Of a DNA stretch of 64,000 nucleotides, positions 38,735-54,969 are shown piece by piece. The position numbers and the translations under genes are program-made. Positions within the stretch are counted from its first letter, which is position 1, and every line of letters begins with the position of its first letter. The DNA comes from Stromatinia cepivora (Eukaryota; Ascomycota; Leotiomycetes; Helotiales; Sclerotiniaceae), in NCBI GenBank assembly GCA_014898415.1, contig RCTD01000019.1:930001-994000 (forward strand), in the 5' to 3' direction. The notes beneath the pieces were generated by a model. The model was not told the DNA's origin. It worked only from the letters and a program-made list of their open reading frames with translations, and did no database searches.

Positions 38735-39296
38735 CCACAACGCCACCTAAGATCTGATAAGATTTTCGAAGGCTAGATCTGACCAATGGATTAACGAGCG
38801 CAAAGCTTGGGTCTCTTCTGCTCTCTTCTGCGCTCTTCCAGAGCCAACCATCCTTATACTGAATTTTCAGATATGCAACAAAAGAATTTAAGGTTTTGAG
38901 GTTGTTATGGTGGTTGGCCCGATCCTACAACGCCACCTAAGATCTGATAATATTTCTAAGGATAGATTTAGCCAATGAATTAACGAGCGCAAAGCTTGGA
39001 TCTCTTTTGCTCTCCTTTGCTCTTCTTTGCGCTCTTCCAGAGCCAACCATCCTTATACTCAATTTTCAGATATGCAACAAAAGAATTTAAGGTTTTAAGT
39101 TGGCCCGATCCCACAACGCCACCTGAGATCTGATCAGATTTCAAGGGCTGGATTTGACCAATAGACTAACGAGCGCAAAGCTTGGGTCTCTTTTGCTCTC
39201 TTTTGCGTTCTTCCAGAGCCAACCATCCTTATACTGAATTTTCAGACATGCAACAAAAGAAAATTTAAGGTTTCAAGGCTGCGATGGTGGCTTGAA
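38735..39296. repeat. Tandem repeat, three units of about 188 bp
   Basis: Units begin at 38735, 38925 and 39111 with CCACAACGCCACCTRAGATC-type sequence. Each carries ACGAGCGCAAAGCTTGG, AGAGCCAACCATCC and TTTTCAGATATGCAACAAA. Flanking single copies of the CAGATATGCAAC motif at about 38505 (direct) and 39330 (inverted) raise the possibility that the array lies in an approximately 840-bp inverted-repeat element. No ORF. Confidence 0.8.
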
Positions 39297-40497: not shown

Positions 40498-42000
40498 TCA
40501 ATAAACATATTCACACCAATATATAGAATTAGGGTCAATCGTACCATTCAATACCAACATCCAACGCGCTCTTTGAAGAACAGTAAGATTGAAAAACTCC
40601 GTTTGCAGTAAATCTACCATCGAATCAGCACCACATTGCGCAGCTATACTTAGCATATTTACTCCCCAGGTCTCTAGATCAATGTCTAATGCCAACAACA
40701 TCTTCAACATAACCGTATCCTCACTCGACACCGCCCATCTTAGCGCTGAGTCATTCGTCCGTATGTGGTTTAAAGTAGCCCCGCGATTAAGGAGCTTGCG
40801 AACAATTGGCGAATTCCTTGCTTTGGCTCCTATGGATACGATTTGATCTCCTAGCCATCCTAATCTGCTTTGATTCTTACAACCGAAGATTGGGTTGGCG
40901 CCGCGTTCAAGTAGAAGATCAACGACATCTTCATGGTTTCCCCTGCAAGCTGCTGCTAAGAAAATTTGCCCGGGCCAAACGCGGATGTTGATTCCTCCAT
41001 CAAGGATATACCTCACTATTTCCAGATTTCCGAGATGAGCATGCTTCTCTAGATCTCCGCGGAGCTCCGATACGGGTTTTTCATAGAATCCTTCGAGGTA
41101 CTTGTATACTTCAAGATTTCGTGTTGACGAGTCCGACCGAAAAATAGCATATGCATCCTTCGAGCCACGGTCGACATGAAGAAATGATTTGACCATGAGG
41201 TCCATACTTTCCCGAGTGGTCCGCGATGGTGGAAATACAGCAAGTCGGACCATATCTAAGTCTCCACTCCTCGCAGCCCCAGTGACTGAATAGTAATAGC
41301 CATCCAAAAGCGCACTTCTTGATTCAAGGCCTTCTAGCTCAACCGTCTTCTGCTGCAAATATTCTAGTATGTGAGTGTTTCCTGCCCATGCAGCCAGCCG
41401 CATAACCGGGCCAAAGAGAGGGCTGCTGCTGAATGGTGAATACTTCCCGTCAATTAAACGTTTTACTACAGGAATAACATTAAGATACGCTGCAGCACAC
41501 AACAGATCCAATTCGAAATCATCCTGAGATTTGGACGGAGATTCGAATTCACCGCAACACGTTCCTTCCTCTAATGCCGGCCAACAAAGAGTTTCTATTG
41601 TTGCTTTCAAGTCATCGCCCGTTTCCGCGCAGAGAGTTTCGGCAACCCGACGAAGCTGGTTAGGGCGAGATTGGCAAGAGTCTGAGTGATATTGGACCCT
41701 GTACACAAGGTAAGAGTGCCAAAAATTGCTCGCTCGTTGATCTTTACGGATGTACCAGTCGGACAAAAGATAGCAAGTAGAATAAGAGTCCAATATCTGC
41801 GACTCAAAAAGTGCAAATTGAACGTCTTTGGAAAATCGCTCTGTATGCAAATGTCAGCTAAGAAAATCTGTGATTGCTAATATGAGACCAAACTTACTGC
41901 ACACAAGCTTAAGTTTTAATGACCTCCTGACTCCGCGAATGAAGACGGCTTCAAGCAAAATCTTGTGGATCAGCTCGGGTGCTAAATCCAGAAAATGCAT
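40498..42000 (-). CDS. F-box and ankyrin-repeat protein (481 aa, two exons)
   Basis: Exon 1 is 41898-42000 and exon 2 is 40498-41840, joined by a 57-bp intron (donor GTAAGT, acceptor CATACAG, phase 1); together they give 481 codons. The N-terminus reads LAPELIHKILLEAV and, across the splice, LVCKRFSKDVQFALF. This is the usual F-box opening of fungal F-box proteins, expected to bind Skp1 in an SCF ubiquitin ligase. From about residue 125 onward come degenerate ankyrin repeats (HLGNLEIVRYILDGGINI, NHEDVVDLLLERGANP, IVRKLLNRGATLN). The start gives the conserved F-box; starting at 41850 instead would lose it. A broken copy of its middle part lies at 51225-51373. The substrate is unknown. Confidence 0.85.
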
Positions 42001-42530
42001 TTTCTTTGATTTTCCGTTATGGACTTGCACAATTTCAGGAGGTGAATTGTTGTTGATCTTTTAGAATGTTGAGAAGAAATTGAAATTTGAGGAACTTGAG
42101 GTTGAACTTATATGCTGGCTCAAAACGAAATAAGACACTAATATGTGTACCTGTTTTGCCAAAGAAATTCACCACCGAGGTGCTCGATGAACGTGAATAC
42201 ACCAAGGCACATGAACAAGACGTCGTGAGTTCAAATGGACAGAATAGATTCCTACAGCAGAAGCATTCCAAGGGTACAAATATATTTAAATGTCGACACA
42301 TCCATCCCAGAACACGAAATTGTACCACAGACTATGCTCAACCCACCTCGAAGTGCGCAATTAAGCATGTACTATGGCAATAGCATTTTACCCATTTTGT
42401 TTGCCCTTGGCTTAGGTTTGTAGTGGCTCGCAGTCTTTCAGTAGCAAGCCGCTACCTCCATCGTATCCTCGCCTTGACCGAATGCTGATATCGCGTTTAT
42501 TGTTGGAAAATTTGTTTAAATTCAATAATT
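42001..42530. other. Intergenic between two minus-strand genes
   Basis: Normal composition. It contains the 3' flank of the NACHT gene and the promoter side of the F-box gene. Open stretches here overlap on both strands and lack domains. Confidence 0.5.
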
Positions 42531-45500
42531 TCAACCAGTAGTCATCAATTTCCTAATCATCGATAGTTCCAATTTACCACCTTTTCCGTCAAACACTTGA
42601 TCCACATCCGACTCTTTGCTTCTCCAGTATTTTCTCATGGTCTCGGTTAACAATCTTCTCGACATAATCGTTCTTCCTTGGTAATTCAGATATGTATTCG
42701 GATCGGCCCCATGATCCAGCATAACTTTGACGATTTCCAAATGATTGCACACCAAAGATTTCTCCTCATCTGAATATTGTTGTGAGCCATTTCCATCGTC
42801 CACCCGTGGAAGAATTGCACAGACATTGCGAATGGCTATTTCAAATGCGGTACATTCCCGGATTGGTGAGAAGTCTTTCATCTTTCTGTTAGGTTGAGCT
42901 CCTTGTGCCAGGAGCAATCCTACCATGCGGGAGCTTGGAGGAATGCGATCTCGAAGATAATCTGAATTCTCCTTTTGCTCCATGCCTTGAACATAATACT
43001 CGTCTGTTGCTGCAAGGGCATATGACAACAGAGTGTGGACGACGGAGCTTTTTGTTTTTGGAGCAAGGTGATTCAAATTCCGTTTAACGTATGCACAAAG
43101 GTCCCAGTTTACTGCAATGTGCAGGAAAGAAGAGAACTTCATTGGTGTCCAGATTGTGCTTTTGAGCCTTGAAGCGTGTGTCAATGTTGCAAAAGTTTCC
43201 AAGGGCTCGATATAAGCATCTGAGCCTGCAATGTCAGCCTCATGAGCGTAATGAAGGACTGTCGTCATAAAGAGTGAAAGCGCGGAACGGTCATTTAAAA
43301 TCTTTTTCCGAGCTTCGGAAATTCCAAGCTCTCTTACATATGAGCACATAAGTGGAGTGTATGGCTCAAATTGCGTTTCTGAAACATGGTTAAAGAGCTT
43401 TGAACGTATTTCTGGGCGTTCCAAATAGTCTCGGACGCTACGATGCAAGTACACGACCCGATAGCCAAGATATTCAAAACCAGGAGAATACCTCCGCCCA
43501 ATCTCGAGTAAGCCTGCACACCTTACTTTTAAATGATCTCGAATGTTGATGTTTCTCATTTGCAGCTCCTGCAAGTTGAATGTGGTACCCTCGGCTCGGG
43601 AAGTACCATAATCAAGAGCAAAGGAAAGACTCAAGGTATCTAGTGTCTTGACGCTCCTCTCACATATGTGCGCGGCTCGTACAATGAGAAATATCAATGC
43701 GGCTTTCTTGATATAGAACGGGTCAATGTTGTCAAGCATTGAGGAAAACAGCTCTTCAAGATCTAATGGAACTATTTCGATACGTTCCTGTAGATCCTGC
43801 GGACTATCTCTATTGGCGAGGCCTCTTTCAATCTCTTGTAAGACAAGCTTAACCCACAAGAAAACCCCATCTGCTCGCGATACGATCTTTCGGATATAAC
43901 TTAACGCCTGGACTGGTTGCTCCACGCATAAATGTTGGTAGTTGACATTCTTTTGGAGAGTTGACTTGACAAAATGATCAATATCGGTTCGTGTCAGATC
44001 CTGCAGCCGCAATGATGGCCCAGATCCGAAAGTATCATCGAACTCAAGTAGCGGACGACTGGAAAGACATATCTTCAACCATGGTACTTGGGCGAGCATA
44101 CTGAAATATTCGGCAATAGTCGAAGGTTGTCCCTCGTATTCGTCAAGACCATCAACAAACAGACAAAGTTTGAAGCTCTGTACGTCTTGGCTAATGAGGA
44201 TGCGCATTGCAGCCTCTAATTCGTTTAAACCCCAATGTTCCATCTCCATCGAGTGATTATTGTGACTTGCTTCAGCAAAAGGCTTTACTAAATCATTGTA
44301 GATCTTAGCCCACCTTGTAGGGAAGCAGAAAGGAAGAAGATCAGGTAAATGTCCAAGGATCTCTATAAGAAGTGCTCGAAGTAGACCATACTGCGACCTC
44401 TGTTCAATAGTACCACTGTTCCAGAAGTAAAACTTTGCCATAACCAGGGGCAGCGGAGCGGACCATTGCTGCAAAAGCTCATTTGCGGTATTGTGACTAG
44501 AAATAAACCTCATCAGTGTTGATTTACCCGAAGCCGCTTTCCCGTTGATCCAATATATACCAGAGCAATGTCGCAGCCAATGCGCAAAACTAGACCACGG
44601 CGTAGAGCCATGTGTGTCATCAAACAGCCACTCGAAGGTCCCTCGATACACATCTGCGATAGTTTCTTCTCGTTCTTTCAATGTTGGAAACTTCAGGCTT
44701 TGAATCAGGCATTGAGCAACTTGTAAGCGGATCGCCTTTTCTTGCCACCTAAGGTTGTGTAGCATCTGCTCTTGAGATATTTGTTTTCCTGTGGTCATTA
44801 AACCTTGGTTTCTATGACGTTTGTAAGTAAATGACTAACAAAGGGACTTCGGGTAAAAAAAAAGAGGCTCAAAGGCATTGTTGAAAGAGTGAATAGAAAT
44901 GCAGGAGATGGGGGGATTGATTTGTAGCTTTACACAAAATGTGCATTAGTCCAAGCTGTTGGACTAGATGTGAAGAGCTTGAGCGTTCGGAAGGCTGTGA
45001 AAGGTCTAGTCTGAGACGACCTGACATTCAGAAGATCTTCAATATTCCCCAAAACGTGAATGTCCCAATGAATACAAGAATCAACAATCTCATATTGTTC
45101 GAATTTCAGCGTGGTTTACCAGAACTAAGTTCTGGCTGGTATTGGAGAGTGAGTGGGTGATAAAAGAACAGACTAAGCTTACTGGCTGTCTTCGATCATG
45201 TCCAGCTGGGGCACAACAATCGGAGAAAATGTGTGCTTGTTAGCTAGTAGCTCCATTCTCCCAAGCAATTGAGTGATTGCCGTGGTTTGGTCTTGAACAC
45301 TTTTGTTAACTTCGTCGTGATGCTTTAGAAGTGCAGTAACAATAGTTTGCGTATTAAAGTCGAGGTTGTCGAAGCGACTTGTCTGACTCAATGATATGAG
45401 AGAAAGCTGATCTCTTCTAATCATTATTTTCTGTGACACACGGACTTCTTGGAATTACTTACCGAAGATCAACAACAATATGCATCTGTATAGAATCCCT

Positions 45501-45914
45501 CAACAAGGCCAAGCGATTTTTCAAATCCGTTAATTCCTTTTCAGACCAAACTGACTTCAATGCTTGTTTGAGGGTTTGCCATTTCCTACACTTGCCAGTG
45601 GCTGTAACTTTTAAACTGCTCAGTTTACTATTGAGCTCTGTGGACACTTCCATTGCATTTTTGCAGATGCAAATGAATGAATTATCTGTCGGTGTAGGTA
45701 TAACCCTATTTCCACAGAGATCTGAATAAGAATCCGAGAGCCTCTTAGACAACTTAGAGAGATCATCGGCCGCAAGTCCTAATTGTTGATGAACATTTAG
45801 CGATTGAGCTCCGGATCTGTAGAGTTCATTAGTGCCAGCTATCACCTTGGAGCTGAAATCCACGAATTGAATGATTGTCCCTGCCAATGACAATGCATCT
45901 AATGGATTCATCAT
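42531..45914 (-). CDS. NACHT-domain STAND (NLR-like) protein with HeLo-like N-terminus (988 aa)
   Basis: The model has three exons: 45463-45914, 45183-45416 and 42531-44811, in frame to 988 codons. Residues 1-150 (DALSLAGTIIQFVDFSSKVI) match the fungal STAND N-terminal domain related to HeLo, known in heterokaryon-incompatibility and cell-death proteins. The NACHT P-loop GKAASGKST is at about 319-327 and Walker B LCLFVDGLDE at about 444-453, followed by LSSRP. The C-terminal third carries winged-helix-like and degenerate ankyrin-like segments (MVGLLLAQGAQPN, IVKVMLDHGADPN). Intron 1 is only 46 bp, but its phase fits and the other acceptor gives a stop. Intron 2 (44812-45182) is 371 bp, unusually long; a small exon may be hidden there. 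The likely role is intracellular recognition linked to incompatibility or defence. Confidence 0.85.
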
Positions 45915-47599: not shown

Positions 47600-48030
47600 G
47601 TGAGGCGCGGTGTTCAGTTCAGTTGTGCCTTGGCACCAAATGTTCGATTGATGTTTTAAGTTTTTGCGATACACCAAACCAATTCAAATTATATATGGTC
47701 TCTTTTCACGTGCTATGTTCGTCCTTCAGATGCAAGATACTTTGCTGTTGGAAAATGATTCAATAAATGTGTGTATCTTATAAAATCTCCTCAAGGTGCT
47801 ACGTCCAAAGGACCACTTCGAAAACAGTTGAATTCTTCTAATAAAAAGTATTAAGTGAAAGGGCCGATTAAGATAGATTGATACGAAACGCGTCAAATCG
47901 CTGTTAAACATTTAATCTTGGGACGTGATTACAAGAAATACACGCTATGTAACACGCTAAGAAAATCCTTGACAATAGGGAAATAAAAAGGATCATTCTC
48001 AACATCTTTTTCCTTTCTATGACAAGCAAA
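47600..48030. other. Intergenic, upstream of microexon gene 1
   Basis: 430 bp with no ORF of note. It ends in a pyrimidine-rich leader followed by CAAAATGTC, a reasonable fungal start context. Confidence 0.5.
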
Positions 48031-49344
48031 ATGTCTGGTACGTGACGATGAATACCATCACTTGTCGTGCTATTTGATTAGTTACGTATGCTGACGATTG
48101 ATTCTTAGGTACTATAGCCCAAGCGGTCCGCCGGAGAAGAATGCAAAGAGGGTAAGTACTTTCATGCGCTTCGTTCCAATAGATAGGTATATAAACTAAT
48201 GAACCGTTATTAAAAAGGACACAAGCATCTGACCACCAAGTCTCTGTGGAGTAAGCTCGCAACACTTAACATAATTCTGTTAGCCGATTAGCTTACTTAG
48301 ATGATAATAGGGAATACGTTGTACAAGCTGAGATAGAAAGGGAGCAGTGAGTATGCCCAACAGTGTTGGGAGTTTCAAATTTCAATATGGACTTGCATCC
48401 AGAGACGCGATACTGGATGAAATGTAAGGCTCAAGTCAATTTTCTGCTAGCCAATCATGAATTTACTAAAAACGAATTAGTAGGGGGAAGTTTGAAGCGG
48501 GAAGGTTCGTATTCCCGTGTATTTTACGTGCTTCGGATCCCGGTATTGACTTGCAATTCAGAGCGGATTGGAGGGTCATCGAGAAGAATTTGTGAGTCCT
48601 TGAGCCATGTTAGTAGTATCAAAATCTTGAGACTAATCCTCGGTTTCAGCGAAATGAAGATTCGCAAGCTGTAAGTTTCATACATTTATATTGTGCGTAA
48701 TCTTCAATGTTGACCAGATATAAGCGACAATGATGTGAATGACTTGTAAGTTTTTCAAATGTAGATCATCAGAAGCTTGTTTACTGACTTATCTCTAGTA
48801 AAATTACACTGGAAAGGATGTAAGTGCCTTGAGCATCAGCAAATGTAGTAATATCCAAATTCTAACACTAGCTCTCTGTTTTAGTCGAGTCGAAAATAAT
48901 AACTTGTAAGTTTTCACATCTTTACCTTTTACGCGATCGTTAATATTGATAAATTTTAGGTCCGAAAAATGCAGCCGTGTGTAAGTGCCTCGACTATGAT
49001 TATTGTAAGCTTATATATTGACTTATCTTTAGTCAGCACGAACTTAACTCAAGGTAAGTGCTTCAAGCGTCGATTACCATAACCTTCGTTGGTATCATTG
49101 AAGAGAATCCCCATTTCCTACATCTAGGTCAATTTATTCTGTCATTCGTATTCTCATCACACCCTACTTATACCCCCGGGGTACCCTCTCGATACTATCA
49201 GTCTTCTACCTCTACCAAATTATATCTGCTCTGCTCTTCACATTCCTCATCCTGCCTTTCTTGACTGAATTTTTCTGCCTAACTAGCCGCGCCAGTATGT
49301 CTACGCTTGCGAATCTGTCCACTCTCTTCATTGTGTTCATTTAA
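48031..49344 (+). CDS. Microexon gene 1: coiled-coil protein of 14 exons (178 aa model)
   Basis: Exons: 48031-48037, 48109-48151, 48218-48250, 48311-48346, 48403-48423, 48481-48504, 48562-48591, 48650-48670, 48725-48745, 48799-48819, 48885-48905, 48960-48980, 49033-49053 and 49128-49344. Exons 3-13 are 33, 36, 21, 24, 30 and then six of 21 nt, all multiples of three and all in phase 2. Introns are 52-74 bp with GTAAGT-type donors and YAG-type acceptors. The joined frame has no stop. The N-terminus is basic (AVRRRRMQR); residues about 30-107 form a charged coiled coil in which each 21-nt exon is one heptad. The last exon is open for 72 codons and strongly hydrophobic (LLFTFLILPFL), perhaps a membrane anchor; this end is the least certain. 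I do not recognise the family. Confidence 0.68.
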
Positions 49345-50220
49345 CTCAACCTTCGACCTTTTTCGATGCCTGTTTTATACACCGGTCGTTCGGTACTCAA
49401 AGTTTTCCCAGAAAGTTCTCTAGGCGTTGGGTAGAAAATTTTATATATTGCCCTTGAACATGTAGTATGTACATTGGACTGCAAGATCAGAACATAGGAT
49501 TAAATGATGTTGCTAGCTGCTAGAACGACTGTTTTTGTTCCCCTATGTAACATTGGAGAAAGTAGTTCAAGAGTCTCTTACGCTAATAATTCATCATTCT
49601 TGATGATGTCTTTCTGGACTTGATTCCAAAGCCAAAGATCAGGTTTTCAAACGATTCCTAAAACTGTTCCAAGATGAAAACCACCACTCTTCTTGTAACT
49701 CATGCCAGTCTCAGGCTGACATGTTTAGATTATCCTAAGACTCTCGGTTTGCTTGGAGATCATTGGATTGTGTTTTGATAACTTGTCACTTTCATCCTAT
49801 TGCTACTCTGTCAATCTAGTTACCTTAAGTCAGTAATTTGCTGTTGCATTTCTTTGTTTATGAGTCATGCACTTATGCAATGCTAGTATAAACCATGATG
49901 ATAGGAAGAGGAAAAGAAGATGTGGGTTTCCGTGGCAGACATGAAGATGGATCTGTCTTCCGCACTACACTTTCTCGCCACGGTCTAAAGACCCCACCAA
50001 TATTGTTAATCTACAGCATTGTTTCTGTCCCCTAAGACATTTCAATATCACTCCACCGTGCTGCACTGCACCGTACTTTCGTGATCTAAGCCTAGTAGCA
50101 AACCCAAAATCCCGAGACTTTTCTGCACATCTCCTTTCTTACTGGAACTCATTTTTATGATATCAAATCCTTTTCATACTCTATCATCCTAGATCAAGGC
50201 TTCTGTCTAGTTACTGATAG
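49345..50220. other. Intergenic between the two microexon genes
   Basis: Normal composition passing into AT-rich DNA after about 50200. Upstream exons of microexon gene 2 may lie here, but I cannot identify them. Confidence 0.4.
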
Positions 50221-50306
50221 AAATCTAAGATATAAAATAGAACTTGAATTTCTAGTAGTCTAAAATTTTAAATTCAGAGTATTCAATATAGCTAACTTCT
50301 ATTTAG

Positions 50307-51190
50307 TCAAGAAGAAATCAAGAATTTGTTAGTATATTCTATTTAGACACTATTATCTATTATAAGAACTATAGACTAATTACTTTGATTTGAGAAATGA
50401 TCAACTTAAGACAGAGTTAGTATACTATTAATCAAATTATACTTGGATATATATTAATATTTTGATTTCTAGAAACCACCAGAAAGAACTACTGTTCGTA
50501 AATCTTATTCCTAGAAAAAATTCAATTCCAATATATCTAATATGTAATCGAATAGTAAAGATCGGATTCAAAGTTTGGAAAAGGAGTAAGTTAATATTTG
50601 TTATTTATTCTTTTTTTCATACGCTATAGCTTTCTAAGTAATACTAATATATTATTTAATTTTATAGACTGTATGTTAATAAACGTAGTTCAGAATAGTA
50701 AGTCTTTAGATTGATATTTAATTCTCAACCACTAATCTACATAACAGCAATAGAGACCATAAAAATTTGTATGTAAAATATATGCTGTTAATAATTATAG
50801 AATACTAATACTAATATCTTGAAGTATGGAGGAAGCAAGAGCACGGTAAGATTTTCTATTCAACATCTTTTAATCTTATAGAAATATAACTAAAATAATA
50901 TTCTAGATGGGCGGACCAAGACAAAGTTTTGTAAGTAAAGTTTTGTATATTTCAACATTTTTGACTAATTATAAAACAATAGTAATGTCGAAATGAGATG
51001 GAATTGGAAGTTTATAGTTACGCTTTACGAGCTGCTATATTGTATTGGGCGTGCATTTCAAATGTAAGTCTATTTCTATTAAGAATTCATCTTAATTATA
51101 ACATAGAACTAATTGAACTTTAGTCCGATCTCCTTCATCTCATTTGTTCTTGCATGTGTTGCAGAGTGGAGAACCAGACAATCCAGTTGA
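50307..51190 (+). CDS. Microexon gene 2: coiled-coil/membrane protein, 5' end unresolved
   Basis: Ten consecutive exons join in frame: 50307-50327, 50395-50415, 50473-50493, 50556-50585, 50668-50697, 50748-50768, 50825-50845, 50907-50930, 50983-51063 and 51124-51190. Sizes are 21, 21, 21, 30, 30, 21, 21, 24, 81 and a 67-nt last exon, all junctions in phase 2, introns 50-82 bp. The product begins as a coiled coil (EEIKNLNDQLKTENHQKELL, then DRIQSLEKELY) and ends in two hydrophobic segments (FIVTLYELLYCIG and ISFISFVLACVA), closing with TRQSS and a stop. A candidate 33-nt upstream exon at 50221-50253 reads well but is followed by AG-TAG, with the GT one base late. Either the 5' part is arranged differently or the gene is broken there. 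It lies 1 kb downstream of gene 1 on the same strand. Confidence 0.6.
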
Positions 51191-51224
51191 GTCTTTGTAA
51201 TAATAAAATCCATCAAATACGATC

Positions 51225-51373
51225 AGCTTAACAAAACTTTGCCGAGCCAGCCGCGAATATCGATTCGTTCATCAAGGATATACTTCACTATTTCTAGATT
51301 TCCGAGATGAATATGTTTCTCTAGATCTTTGTGGAGGTCTATTATGAGCTTTGCATAGAATCCTTCGAGATAC
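51225..51373 (-). pseudogene. Fragment of an F-box/ankyrin gene
   Basis: About 50 codons (YLEGFYAKLIIDLHKDLEKH, then IHLGNLEIVKYILDERIDI) match the middle of the F-box/ankyrin protein at 40498-42000 (YLEGFYEKPVSELRGDLEKH and HLGNLEIVRYILDGGINI). Nothing of the F-box or the remaining repeats is present. It is cut off on its N-terminal side exactly where the solo LTR at 51374 begins, and ends shortly after on the other side. It is antisense to, and just downstream of, microexon gene 2. Confidence 0.85.
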
Positions 51374-51671
51374 TGTGAAAGAGGTAGTCGAGAATATGTG
51401 TGTACCGATAGCACGTTGTGAGGGGGATTAGGAGTAGGAACTGAATGGATTACATTGTAGAGGCTTCAAATTGTTAAATTAGTAGAATAAATAATGAGTT
51501 GAATTGTGTTCAATTGATATACAAAAAGATTAGTGGAAAAACGATTAATTATTAAGGGAGAGGGAAGCGGAGCCCTTTTTTATAATTAACTACGAAGAAT
51601 TGTGTGACCATATGATTATGAACGAGCAGACCATTCTGAAAATTCTTAATTGATATTATTATAATATTACA
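51374..51671 (-). repeat. Solo LTR, second copy of the family at 15535
   Basis: 298 bp. On the plus strand it begins TGTGAAAGAGG and ends TATTACA. The reverse complement aligns with 15535-15826 from end to end, sharing CATATGGTCACA and GAAGCCTCTACAATGTAAT. GATAC precedes it and ATATC follows, so a clear target duplication is not preserved. Confidence 0.8.
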
Positions 51672-52317: not shown

Positions 52318-54969
52318 CTAATAGTACTCGGGTAAATCGCTAAAGCTCGGAATTGCCGATGAACAGTTAAAGTCCGGTTTGTATGCTAGTTTTGGAAGAA
52401 TTCCTGCTGCTAATCCTCTTTGATAACCTATTAATTTGGTATATTAGTATCCGATCAAATATTCTGCACATACCTCCCTCCCATTTCCCACGAATGAACC
52501 CATCAGTATGAAGAAGGGAAAGCATAAAGACAAAAGGAAAGAAAGGAGAAACTCACTCCACTGCGTCCCACCCCCCTCACTAGTTTCCGTAGCCCAAGTC
52601 CAATAAAACCAACCCCAACTCAACTCAAAACTATGCATCTGCGCTTCTGCAAACATCTTCAAAAAGCTCTTGTACGTATCACTATAAGTACTTGGATCTG
52701 CATTTGCGTTGGTACAACTACATGTACTATCCTGTGTGGGACAATCTGGCGTCGTTCGCTCTGTCGATGGATCTCCAGAATGATATGTACCTTCCCATCT
52801 ATTCCCTTGATTCACATTCGTGAGATACGTTGCGCAATCCGTATCGGCTTGAGACCATTCGGCAACCATCGTGGGTCCAAATCCGGTATTTTTGTTCATG
52901 GATATTTCGGTTTGCTTGGTCCAGCCACTACAGGCATAATTAACTTTTTCCGAATGGTTGTAAAGAATTTGACCATTGTTGAAGATGACATATTGATGAA
53001 CATCTAGAATTAGATTGTCATAACTAGTCAAATCACCGTGCCAATTTTCGAGCCCCCGAAACCCATCTCCAATTACGACCTGCGCTGAAATGCCATTCTT
53101 CGCCACCAAATCCGTCACAACGGATGTCCAGTTTAGAACAGAATTGGGATCGATTGCTGTCATTCTAGGTTCGTTGGCCAGGCCATAGAAAGTAAGAATA
53201 TTTTTATAGCGATCTTGAGCAAAGAACTTGGAGAGCCGATCGTGGATTTCAATGCTACGTTGAGCATTCAGATCGCCATTAGTTCCGTTTAACCAACCAA
53301 CAACTCCTTGACGACCGGAGTGGTTCCAACCATTTTGGGATCCAGGAAGTCCGTGAAGATCGAGGTTAATGCGAAGACCATGTTTGCGAGCCCATTCTAT
53401 ACCACGGAGAAGGTAGCGCCACGAGGTGCGAAAAACATAGGGATCATCGTCGTAAGTTATCACTGCCCAATATGAGTAGGGTATTCGAACATGATCCAAC
53501 CCAGCAGCGGCGATATCAGCAAATGTTTGTTCAGAAACGAAGGTTGCATAATGTTTTTCGAGGGTAGATGCAGCCGCACTGGCACCCAACTTAGTGGTCA
53601 GTGTCCATTCATCGATAATTCCATCTGCTGATGAATAAGAATTGAAGAGAGATGGCGTAATGAAAGGTTCGATAGAAAGCCAACCCCCTAAATTAACACC
53701 TCTGGCTGGTCTTGAAGTATACGGTCCCCAGTCTGCAGATATTTTAGGTGCATTGGAATTTGGTGCTATGTTATCGCTGTAAGAGGCATTCAAACCCATG
53801 ACCGGAAGATCTCCAACAGTTTCGTTTGTATAGGTGACATTGAAATCTAAAGTGTCGTACCATGTAAAAGGATCCAAATATGTCCCTTGAGCTGCAACTG
53901 GAATATCACTTTCTGACATGCCATCAAGGTTTGAATTTGGAGGACTTCCATTCTCTGTTGCGGGGGCTGTAGACGAAGAGGAACTTGATGTGTGCTTTTT
54001 GCTAGCGCTCACAGCAACTGCTATTATAATTATCAATATTACTATTCCAATGCCAATTCCAATCCCTAAATACATTATCAGCTCTAAACATAATTTTTTC
54101 GACCTAGAGTTTGAAAACTCACATATGCGTTTCCGCCTTTTTCTGAAATCCTCATCACTTTCGATATACTTCTCATAATAGCTTGATTCCGTAGGCGCAT
54201 ATCCACCTCTCAACCCCCTCAGATTCCTTAAATCATTTTTCAGTCCTGCACCGCTGAATATTCTTCGTTGCTTCAGCTCTCCTTCGCCTTCTTCCAAAAG
54301 TGCTCCACTAACAACTCTCCGCTTCTTTGTTTTAGGTTCTTTCCGAGGCTTCTCATATACTATTTCATCGTCTGTAAATTTATTTGGTATCTTCAAAGGC
54401 CGTTGCTCTTTACGCGGAGCATTTTGTTTTGGTTCGGGGATGTCATTTTGCTTTCTTCTCTGTTTTTGAATACGTAGAGCCGTTTCTGCCGCTGTCTCGT
54501 AATCGGAATACTCGTGCTCCCGTTTCTTTTTATCTTTACTAGGGTGTCCAGATTCATCGTCGGTATATCCATGGTCTCGCCTTGTTCTTTCTTTCCTTGG
54601 TGAACCGGGAATCTCATCATAATCGCGTTCTCTCCTCCTTCTATTTTTACTCGGGGAGCTAGAATCCTCAGTCGCATAACCGCTCTGCTTTCGTCTTCTG
54701 TCTTTGCTAGGTGACCCTCTTTCCCTCGATCGTCCATGGTCCTCCTTCACTGGTGGTCTCGATCTCGACTTCCTCCTCTCCTCTCTCCTCTTCTCTCGTT
54801 CAAGGGAATCATTTAATCTTGTTATGGAATCGATTGATAAGGTCTGCGATTCAGTTGGTTCAGAAGGTGCTTCAGATTCTGCGACAATGGCCCTTGATCT
54901 TCGTTCTGCTCGTCGTTTCTCGTGTAATGTACTTTTTCTATGTGGTCGTTCAGATGCGTCCCCTGCCAT
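52318..54969 (-). CDS. exgD: Membrane-anchored exo-1,3-beta-glucosidase D, GH5 (840 aa)
   Basis: Exon 1 is 52557-54969 and exon 2 is 52318-52427, with a 129-bp intron (donor GTGAGT, phase 1); together 840 codons. Reading through the donor instead gives a non-homologous hydrophobic tail, while splicing restores YQRGLAAGILPK, typical of the family's end. Residues 1-295 are a long basic Ser/Arg-rich cytoplasmic tail, followed by a type II membrane anchor at 297-320 and a Ser/Thr stem. The GH5 (subfamily 9) catalytic domain runs from about 412: RGVNLGGWL, VRIPYSYW, LDLHGLPGSQNGWNHSG. Acid/base Glu600 is in LANEPRM and nucleophile Glu704 in VAEWSQADTDC. It releases glucose from the ends of cell-wall beta-1,3-glucan at the outer membrane face. 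Confidence 0.95.

Follow-up and report, generated by a model that had tools for sequence, protein, structure and literature searches.

Two adjacent loci of the ascomycete Stromatinia cepivora can be read as protein-coding genes built from arrays of very short, symmetric phase-2 exons, and the commonest exon length, 21 nt, corresponds to exactly one heptad of a predicted coiled coil. We think it probable that these loci encode modular coiled-coil proteins which carry a C-terminal hydrophobic segment and which have grown by duplication of heptad-sized exons. Both arrays lie on the forward strand of the 64,000-nt stretch that we analysed (the window; contig RCTD01000019.1 of assembly GCA_014898415.1, positions 930,001 to 994,000), and coordinates below are counted from its first nucleotide. 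The first, gene 1, was the subject of a preliminary description of this DNA; the second array (gene 2, which starts 963 bp downstream), the heptad register and the duplication of a block within gene 1 are additions to that description.

The preliminary description proposed that gene 1 occupies 48031-49344 and is read in a single frame from 14 exons. In silico splicing bears this out, giving a joined coding sequence of 537 nt, with an open frame of 178 codons and a stop. Exon 1 (48031-48037) contributes 7 nt counted from the ATG, an alternative in-frame ATG at 48019 also being possible, and is followed by exon 2 (48109-48151, 43 nt), exon 3 (48218-48250, 33 nt) and exon 4 (48311-48346, 36 nt). 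Exon 5 (48403-48423) is the first of 21 nt and encodes the heptad DAILDEI. Exons 6 (48481-48504, 24 nt) and 7 (48562-48591, 30 nt) are succeeded by six further exons of 21 nt, namely exon 8 (48650-48670, EMKIRKL), exon 9 (48725-48745, DNDVNDF), exon 10 (48799-48819, KITLERI), exon 11 (48885-48905, RVENNNL), exon 12 (48960-48980, SEKCSRV) and exon 13 (49033-49053, QHELNSR). The claim that exons 3-13 are all multiples of three in phase 2 also holds: these eleven of the twelve internal exons have phase-2 introns on both sides, and together they make up 270 of the 537 nt (50%) of the coding sequence. The final exon, exon 14 (49128-49344, 217 nt including the stop), encodes a hydrophobic C terminus. 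It is CT-rich and weakly supported, with its frame staying open in 666 of 5000 shuffles, and this frame could be a chance product.

The 13 introns of gene 1 are 52-74 nt long. A regular succession of GTAAGT-type donors and AG acceptors had been reported, and we find donors of the form GTRNGN in 12 of the 13 introns, seven of them GTAAGT, and acceptors that are TAG, CAG or AAG in all 13; the donor of intron 6 is a weak GTTCGT. A branch-like YTRAY motif stands 11-23 nt from the intron end in nine of the 13, with introns 3, 4, 5 and 13 having none nearby. The acceptor of intron 5 (48424-48483) is a tandem one, TAGTAG, by which a codon would be gained or lost and which leaves 3 nt of exon 6 uncertain.

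Gene 2 (50307-51190) is spliced in silico from ten exons, a to j, which are joined across nine phase-2 introns and remain open to a stop codon. All eight exons with an intron on both sides (b to i) start and end in phase 2. The array opens with three exons of 21 nt, exon a (50307-50327, heptad QEEIKNL), exon b (50395-50415, NDQLKTE) and exon c (50473-50493, NHQKELL). Two of 30 nt come next, exon d (50556-50585) and exon e (50668-50697), followed by two more of 21 nt, exon f (50748-50768, NRDHKNF) and exon g (50825-50845, MEEARAR), then by exon h (50907-50930, 24 nt), exon i (50983-51063, 81 nt) and the hydrophobic last exon j (51124-51190, 67 nt including the stop). YTRAY motifs are found 10-24 nt from the end of eight of the nine introns; intron g has none nearby. 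The first exon or exons were not placed, donors upstream of 50307 being poor. Confidence is lowest for exons a and b: the array begins with the donors GTTAGT, GTTAGT and GTTCGT, and its first acceptor, which closes the weak intron after exon a, is GAG.

Single splice sites come cheaply, and the exact junctions were initially picked by eye. It might therefore be argued that splice-like motifs merely happen to link an open frame in what is non-coding DNA. Training splice sites on the long reading frames yielded just 10 introns, and for this reason we used a generic fungal donor score, taken from general knowledge, with shuffled sequences as the control. Our principal search looked for chains of symmetric exons of 15-48 nt in one phase and an open frame, separated by introns of 45-85 nt. 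At gene 1 it found a chain of 12 links, 10 of which are introns as drawn by hand; of the two mismatches, one is 3 nt off at the TAGTAG acceptor and the other, the last link, takes another acceptor at the 3' end of the intron after exon 13. The longest chain in 1000 dinucleotide shuffles had 5 links, reached in 2 of the 1000. The chain at gene 2 had 7 links against a shuffle maximum of 4; it spans seven of the nine introns, six of them as drawn by hand, leaving exon a outside, taking in exon b by its 3' intron only, and starting exon f 6 nt later than our model does. When strong donors and a branch motif were required, the chains had 6 links at gene 1 and 5 at gene 2, and the shuffles gave at most 2 and 2. 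Under all four settings used, none of 1000 shuffles equalled the observed chain length of either locus.

We also surveyed 264 kb of DNA, out of the 55.67-Mb assembly of 48 contigs, with the symmetric-chain search on both strands. Among 1050 overlapping 1.5-kb windows, no chain exceeded 4 links besides those of genes 1 and 2. A looser search of the same 264 kb (700 windows, both strands), in which any exon of 9-45 nt was allowed, chained 13 introns at gene 1 under its loosest setting, nine of them as in the hand-drawn model, compared with a maximum of 7 in dinucleotide shuffles (2 of 1000). Its best windows held 13 and 8 chained introns, both at gene 1, and 7 at 50001-51500. Six introns were chained in two overlapping windows near 64251-66500. 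We rejected this candidate third array: its six links are obtained only with weak donors and without the branch rule, and it is absent among the windows with at least 4 links under the symmetric-exon rule. We likewise set aside the reading of the two arrays as one gene, since gene 1 runs to a stop and the automated chains break off at 49103 and resume at 50416.

Other properties of the two loci were compared with randomised versions of the models. When the exon mask is shifted circularly along gene 1, the contrast between its exons and introns is matched in 5 (GC content) and 3 (purine content) of 1080 positions, and that of gene 2 in 7 (GC) and 1 (purine) of 874. Shuffling exons 1-13 of gene 1 leaves the frame open in 4 of 5000 trials, and shuffling exons a-i of gene 2 in 12 of 5000. 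Strong donor hexamers, a set picked after the introns had been viewed, number 13 on the forward strand and 1 on the reverse strand at gene 1, and 7 and 0, respectively, at gene 2. Given chain lengths unmatched in 1000 shuffles per locus under four settings, together with the heptad register and the protein match in Sclerotinia nivalis described below, we regard a chance origin of the arrays as extremely improbable.

Across the two genes there are 19 microexons, of which 12 are 21 nt long (seven of the 11 in gene 1 and five of the eight in gene 2), and each of these twelve encodes one heptad. The other seven, of 24, 30, 33 or 36 nt, break the heptad rule. We numbered the heptad such that the codon split by the junction is its seventh position, and counted I, L, V, F, M, C, Y and W as hydrophobic. 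At positions 1 to 7, hydrophobic residues then occur in 1, 3, 1, 8, 0, 1 and 9 of the 12 heptads. The summed hydropathy of positions 4 and 7 was equalled in none of 100,000 random choices of position, and a test in which the best of all position pairs was allowed gave 0 of 20,000. Taken gene by gene, the test of positions 4 and 7 gave 0 of 20,000 for gene 1 and 76 of 20,000 for gene 2. It is important to note that the exons had been selected on splice sites and frame, not on hydropathy, before the heptads were tested. By hydropathy permutation, then, the exons show the hydrophobic a/d pattern of a coiled coil. With positions 4 and 7 hydrophobic and position 7 at the junction, the codon that the intron splits is usually that of a core residue, and one 21-nt exon more or fewer would change the coil by one heptad, with both the frame and the register undisturbed.

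An independent, computational view of the splicing comes from a related species. Searching 5.8 billion proteins with the conceptual protein of gene 2 gave one match out of 4 candidates, OCU04_008399 of S. nivalis, a hypothetical, uncharacterised protein of 124 amino acids (E 2e-28). Over exons d-i, 55 of 75 residues are identical (6 of 10 in exon d, 6 of 10 in e, 6 of 7 in f, 6 of 7 in g, 5 of 8 in h and 25 of 27 in i); the match covers the first residues only of exon j. OCU04_008399 thus runs uninterrupted across five of the proposed introns of gene 2, with one extra residue at the junction of exons h and i, the fifth of these introns. Its N-terminal half departs from the proposed microexon model. 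We take this protein, annotated by others in another species, to offer the strongest support for splicing, yet it is itself a prediction that is known from the protein alone. In an AlphaFold single-sequence model, residues 33-123 of OCU04_008399 form one helix. The best model has a mean pLDDT of 77.7, with block values of 71-95 over residues 31-120; the other four models have means of 37-39.

The preliminary description had looked to relatives for conservation of the phase-2 pattern. Conserved splicing is supported for gene 2 only, by way of OCU04_008399; for gene 1, the protein search returned none of 45 candidates at E≤1. Over a wider length range, the gene 2 search gave none of 30 candidates at E≤1. 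Within the S. cepivora genome, the gene 2 protein found itself only, and its DNA found itself and a piece of an ankyrin gene lying outside gene 2. A six-frame search of the same genome for paralogues of gene 1 gave 13 weak matches (E 0.1-5.3), aligned chiefly to the hydrophobic tail and some in opposite orientation; we discarded these as copies of an AT-rich repeat. This repeat, probably a mutated transposon, is at least 3 kb long and is present in 13 copies on ten contigs, roughly 78-84% alike over long stretches.

Nor could we substantiate that gene 2 is a paralogue of gene 1, given that their protein similarity was equalled in 634 of 2000 heptad-preserving shuffles. The introns of the two genes show no likeness (mean z -0.1). 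With neither introns nor proteins significantly alike, the two genes may be kin only in kind. A profile built from 12 units had 17 matches in the 264 kb, of which 12 were the training units, one was a partial match to exon h of gene 2 and four were weak matches in DNA of 8-17% GC, the best of these at E 0.06. Neither protein scored above any family cut-off in Pfam; matches below threshold included several coiled-coil families, with NACHT and ankyrin absent. Among solved structures, none resembled gene 1 at E≤0.1.

Similarity of a different kind is found inside gene 1. Introns 7, 8 and 9 resemble introns 10, 11 and 12, respectively, with z scores of 5.3, 2.6 and 3.4 against a null that keeps the splice signals, and when introns 4-13 are reordered at random, an ordered run of equal strength turns up in 15 of 5000 cases. 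The stretch from intron 7 to exon 10 (48592-48819) aligns with that from intron 10 to exon 13 (48820-49053) with a score of 107, compared with 54.8 ± 11.2 in shuffles, none of 2000 of which did as well. Taken alone, the introns of these blocks share 63-67% identity (z 8.3). The exons agree at 8, 5 and 7 of 21 positions (z -0.75), and 1582 of 2000 shuffles were as good; if the exons shared the 65% identity of the introns, 20 or fewer matches in 63 positions would have a probability of 8e-8, a comparison in which gaps were allowed in the intron alignments but not in those of the exons. It looks, from these alignments, as if a block of three introns and three exons has been tandemly duplicated.

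There are two ways in which such a pattern could have arisen. Either a block of three heptads was duplicated, with later change being faster in its exons than in its introns, or copying involved the introns alone. We favour duplication of the block because of the collinear order and the heptad spacing. The second possibility is akin to gain of introner-like elements, which are near-identical introns spread across many genes of one genome. Related introns would have been inserted repeatedly into an ordinary coiled-coil gene, and the 21-nt spacing would reflect a preference of insertion. The likeness of 63-67% between introns 7/10, 8/11 and 9/12, set beside flanking exons that are unlike, is what such gain would produce. 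But the likeness follows the order of the introns with an offset of exactly three (the 15 of 5000 reorderings given above) and does not extend across all introns, the mean z over all 231 intron pairs being 0.26; and a constant phase 2, with heptad spacing at one position of the register, is not expected from insertion. The DNA of gene 1 matches itself only in its own genome, in a search that introns of about 55 nt at 65% identity would escape. Repeated insertion is, in our view, unlikely, and we keep to the duplication of a heptad-exon block.

The surroundings of the arrays raise another possibility, that one or both are relics, once functional and now decaying in a region subject to repeat-induced mutation. 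Stretches of about 20% GC alternate in the window with islands of about 42% GC. AT-rich stretches and GC islands of this sort are common in filamentous ascomycetes that have repeat-induced mutation. Gene 2 lies within a stretch of 30% GC, and just 3' of it is a 146-bp piece (51229-51374) with 80% identity (117/146) to 40957-41102, part of an ankyrin-repeat frame at 40498-41850. Of the 29 differences between the two, 17 are changes from C to T or from G to A in the 146-bp piece, which resembles repeat-induced point mutation. The position of gene 2 beside this fragment, its missing 5' end and its weak first splice sites would all fit a relic. We nevertheless consider decay distinctly unlikely, in that both frames are open across all microexons and exon i of gene 2 still shares 25 of its 27 residues with the S. 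nivalis protein.

Arrays of short symmetric exons are known from animals, and the preliminary description, by reference to them, implied a parallel to secreted proteins. Schistosome micro-exon genes (MEGs) are described as having runs of short symmetric exons of 6-36 bp that make up ∼80% of the coding region, together with signal peptides, some of the proteins being membrane-anchored (PMC5825161). Gene 1 resembles these in its run of short symmetric exons. It differs from them, as so described, in that such exons make up only 50% of its coding region and in that it has no N-terminal hydrophobic segment by simple hydropathy, the highest mean over 19 residues, with start points from residue 1 to 19, being -0.34; and in genes 1 and 2 the commonest exon length is that of a heptad. 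Aphid bicycle genes, putative effectors of insect plant galls, have ∼17 exons on average, with unusually small internal exons that are nearly all in phase 2 (PMC9168663). Genes 1 and 2 share with them the many small internal exons, almost all in phase 2 (11 of 12 in gene 1, 8 of 8 in gene 2), and unlike bicycle genes as described they show coiled-coil periodicity.

Could the arrays nonetheless be MEG-like or bicycle-like genes for secreted, fast-evolving proteins? The number and phase of the short exons would suit such genes, as would the exons of the duplicated block, which appear more diverged than its introns, and the membrane anchoring described for some MEG proteins (PMC5825161). However, the protein of gene 1, which lacks the N-terminal hydrophobic segment and has 270 rather than some 80% of its 537 nt in short symmetric exons, reads instead as a heptad coiled coil with a C-terminal hydrophobic segment. 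A secreted protein of this type is thus highly unlikely, and the parallel drawn earlier is not supported for the product: without a hydrophobic N terminus, the likeness of gene 1 to MEG and bicycle genes is one of architecture, not a claim about function.

The statement that no fungal counterpart has been described proved too strong, given reports on Tuber and Trichoderma. The nank (NACHT-ANK) genes of Tuber melanosporum are described as containing tens of codon-sized microexons (Iotti et al. 2012, via PMC3689799, PMC4986451, PMC10197012), which are in-frame, 3 bp long and diversified by alternative splicing. Like them, the present genes are fungal and have many in-frame microexons per gene; they differ from nank genes as described there in having exons of 21-36 nt, not 3 bp, and in encoding a coiled-coil protein with no NACHT or ankyrin match, not an NLR. 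In Trichoderma, the transcription factor gene Xlr2 is reported to have one functional, regulated microexon (PMC11121469). It too is a microexon of a filamentous ascomycete, single as described where genes 1 and 2 have arrays. In literature searches that extended to Leotiomycetes and Botrytis, and within whose reach most subscription papers and most preprints did not fall, we found no fungal array of heptad-sized exons.

Taken together, we propose the following mechanism. The exon chain, the open frame, the heptad register, the similarity of the blocks and the S. nivalis relative of gene 2 are all computed results. Two adjacent protein-coding genes would consist of arrays of symmetric phase-2 microexons, with each 21-nt exon supplying one heptad and the following intron falling within the codon of the seventh residue, usually (9 of 12) a hydrophobic core residue. 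The exon would in this way be the unit of the rod, because a 21-nt exon is a heptad and the intron lies inside the seventh-residue codon. At 50-82 nt the introns are short, and intron definition, a general feature of fungal splicing, would allow them to be recognised one by one; recognition of introns as single units allows the exons to be tiny. Duplication of intron-exon blocks would lengthen the array, their loss or the skipping of exons may shorten it, and such changes in units of 21 nt would keep both the frame and the register of the coiled coil.

Most likely, the product would form a long, oligomerising helix that its C-terminal hydrophobic segment keeps at a membrane, the attachment being suggested by hydropathy alone. 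The best 19-residue hydropathy, 2.16 for gene 1 and 1.74 for gene 2, is C-terminal in both, which would fit tail-anchored membrane proteins with their single transmembrane segment at that end. For gene 1 the hydrophobic segment is provisional because it lies in the CT-rich exon 14; in gene 2, exon i, which adjoins the hydrophobic last exon, is the best-conserved part. We infer that the cell splices the arrays, that the products oligomerise and attach to membranes, and that variation in length is put to use; a role of the rods in recognition is speculation. More broadly, and tentatively, the two loci may exemplify a class of fungal genes whose coiled coils evolve with the spliceosomal microexon as their unit. 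Exons of one heptad, split at the codon of a core residue, would be extended by multi-exon duplication and would then diverge faster than their introns, giving coils that change rapidly and vary in length, perhaps by exon skipping too, for recognition at membranes.

Provided that the splicing is genuine, a filamentous ascomycete has evolved arrays of tiny in-frame exons in genes other than the NLR genes of truffles, and the size of an exon is tied to a structural repeat, one exon being one heptad with the intron at a fixed position of the repeat. The old question of exons as structural modules would become testable at small scale, with a rod that could lengthen or shorten one repeat at a time. 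Genes of this type may be missed or garbled by fungal annotation: our protein search found no relative for gene 1, and OCU04_008399 is only partly consistent with the array. Should the preservation of introns and divergence of exons in the duplicated block hold in relatives, it would be the mark of a fast-evolving protein.

The neighbourhood of the arrays contains several other features. Rfam gave no match within 36000-64000. On the reverse strand, 40498-45914 is an NLR-like region comprising a 755-aa frame (42531-44798) with matches to NPHP3_N and DUF7791, an adjoining 151-aa frame without a Pfam match, and the ankyrin-repeat frame mentioned above. Beyond it, at 38735-39277, a 186-bp unit forms a tandem array of 2.9 copies with 82% matches. 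Downstream of gene 2, also on the reverse strand, an 841-aa frame (52444-54969) has a long charged N terminus and a hydrophobic segment ahead of a domain of the GH5 cellulase family.
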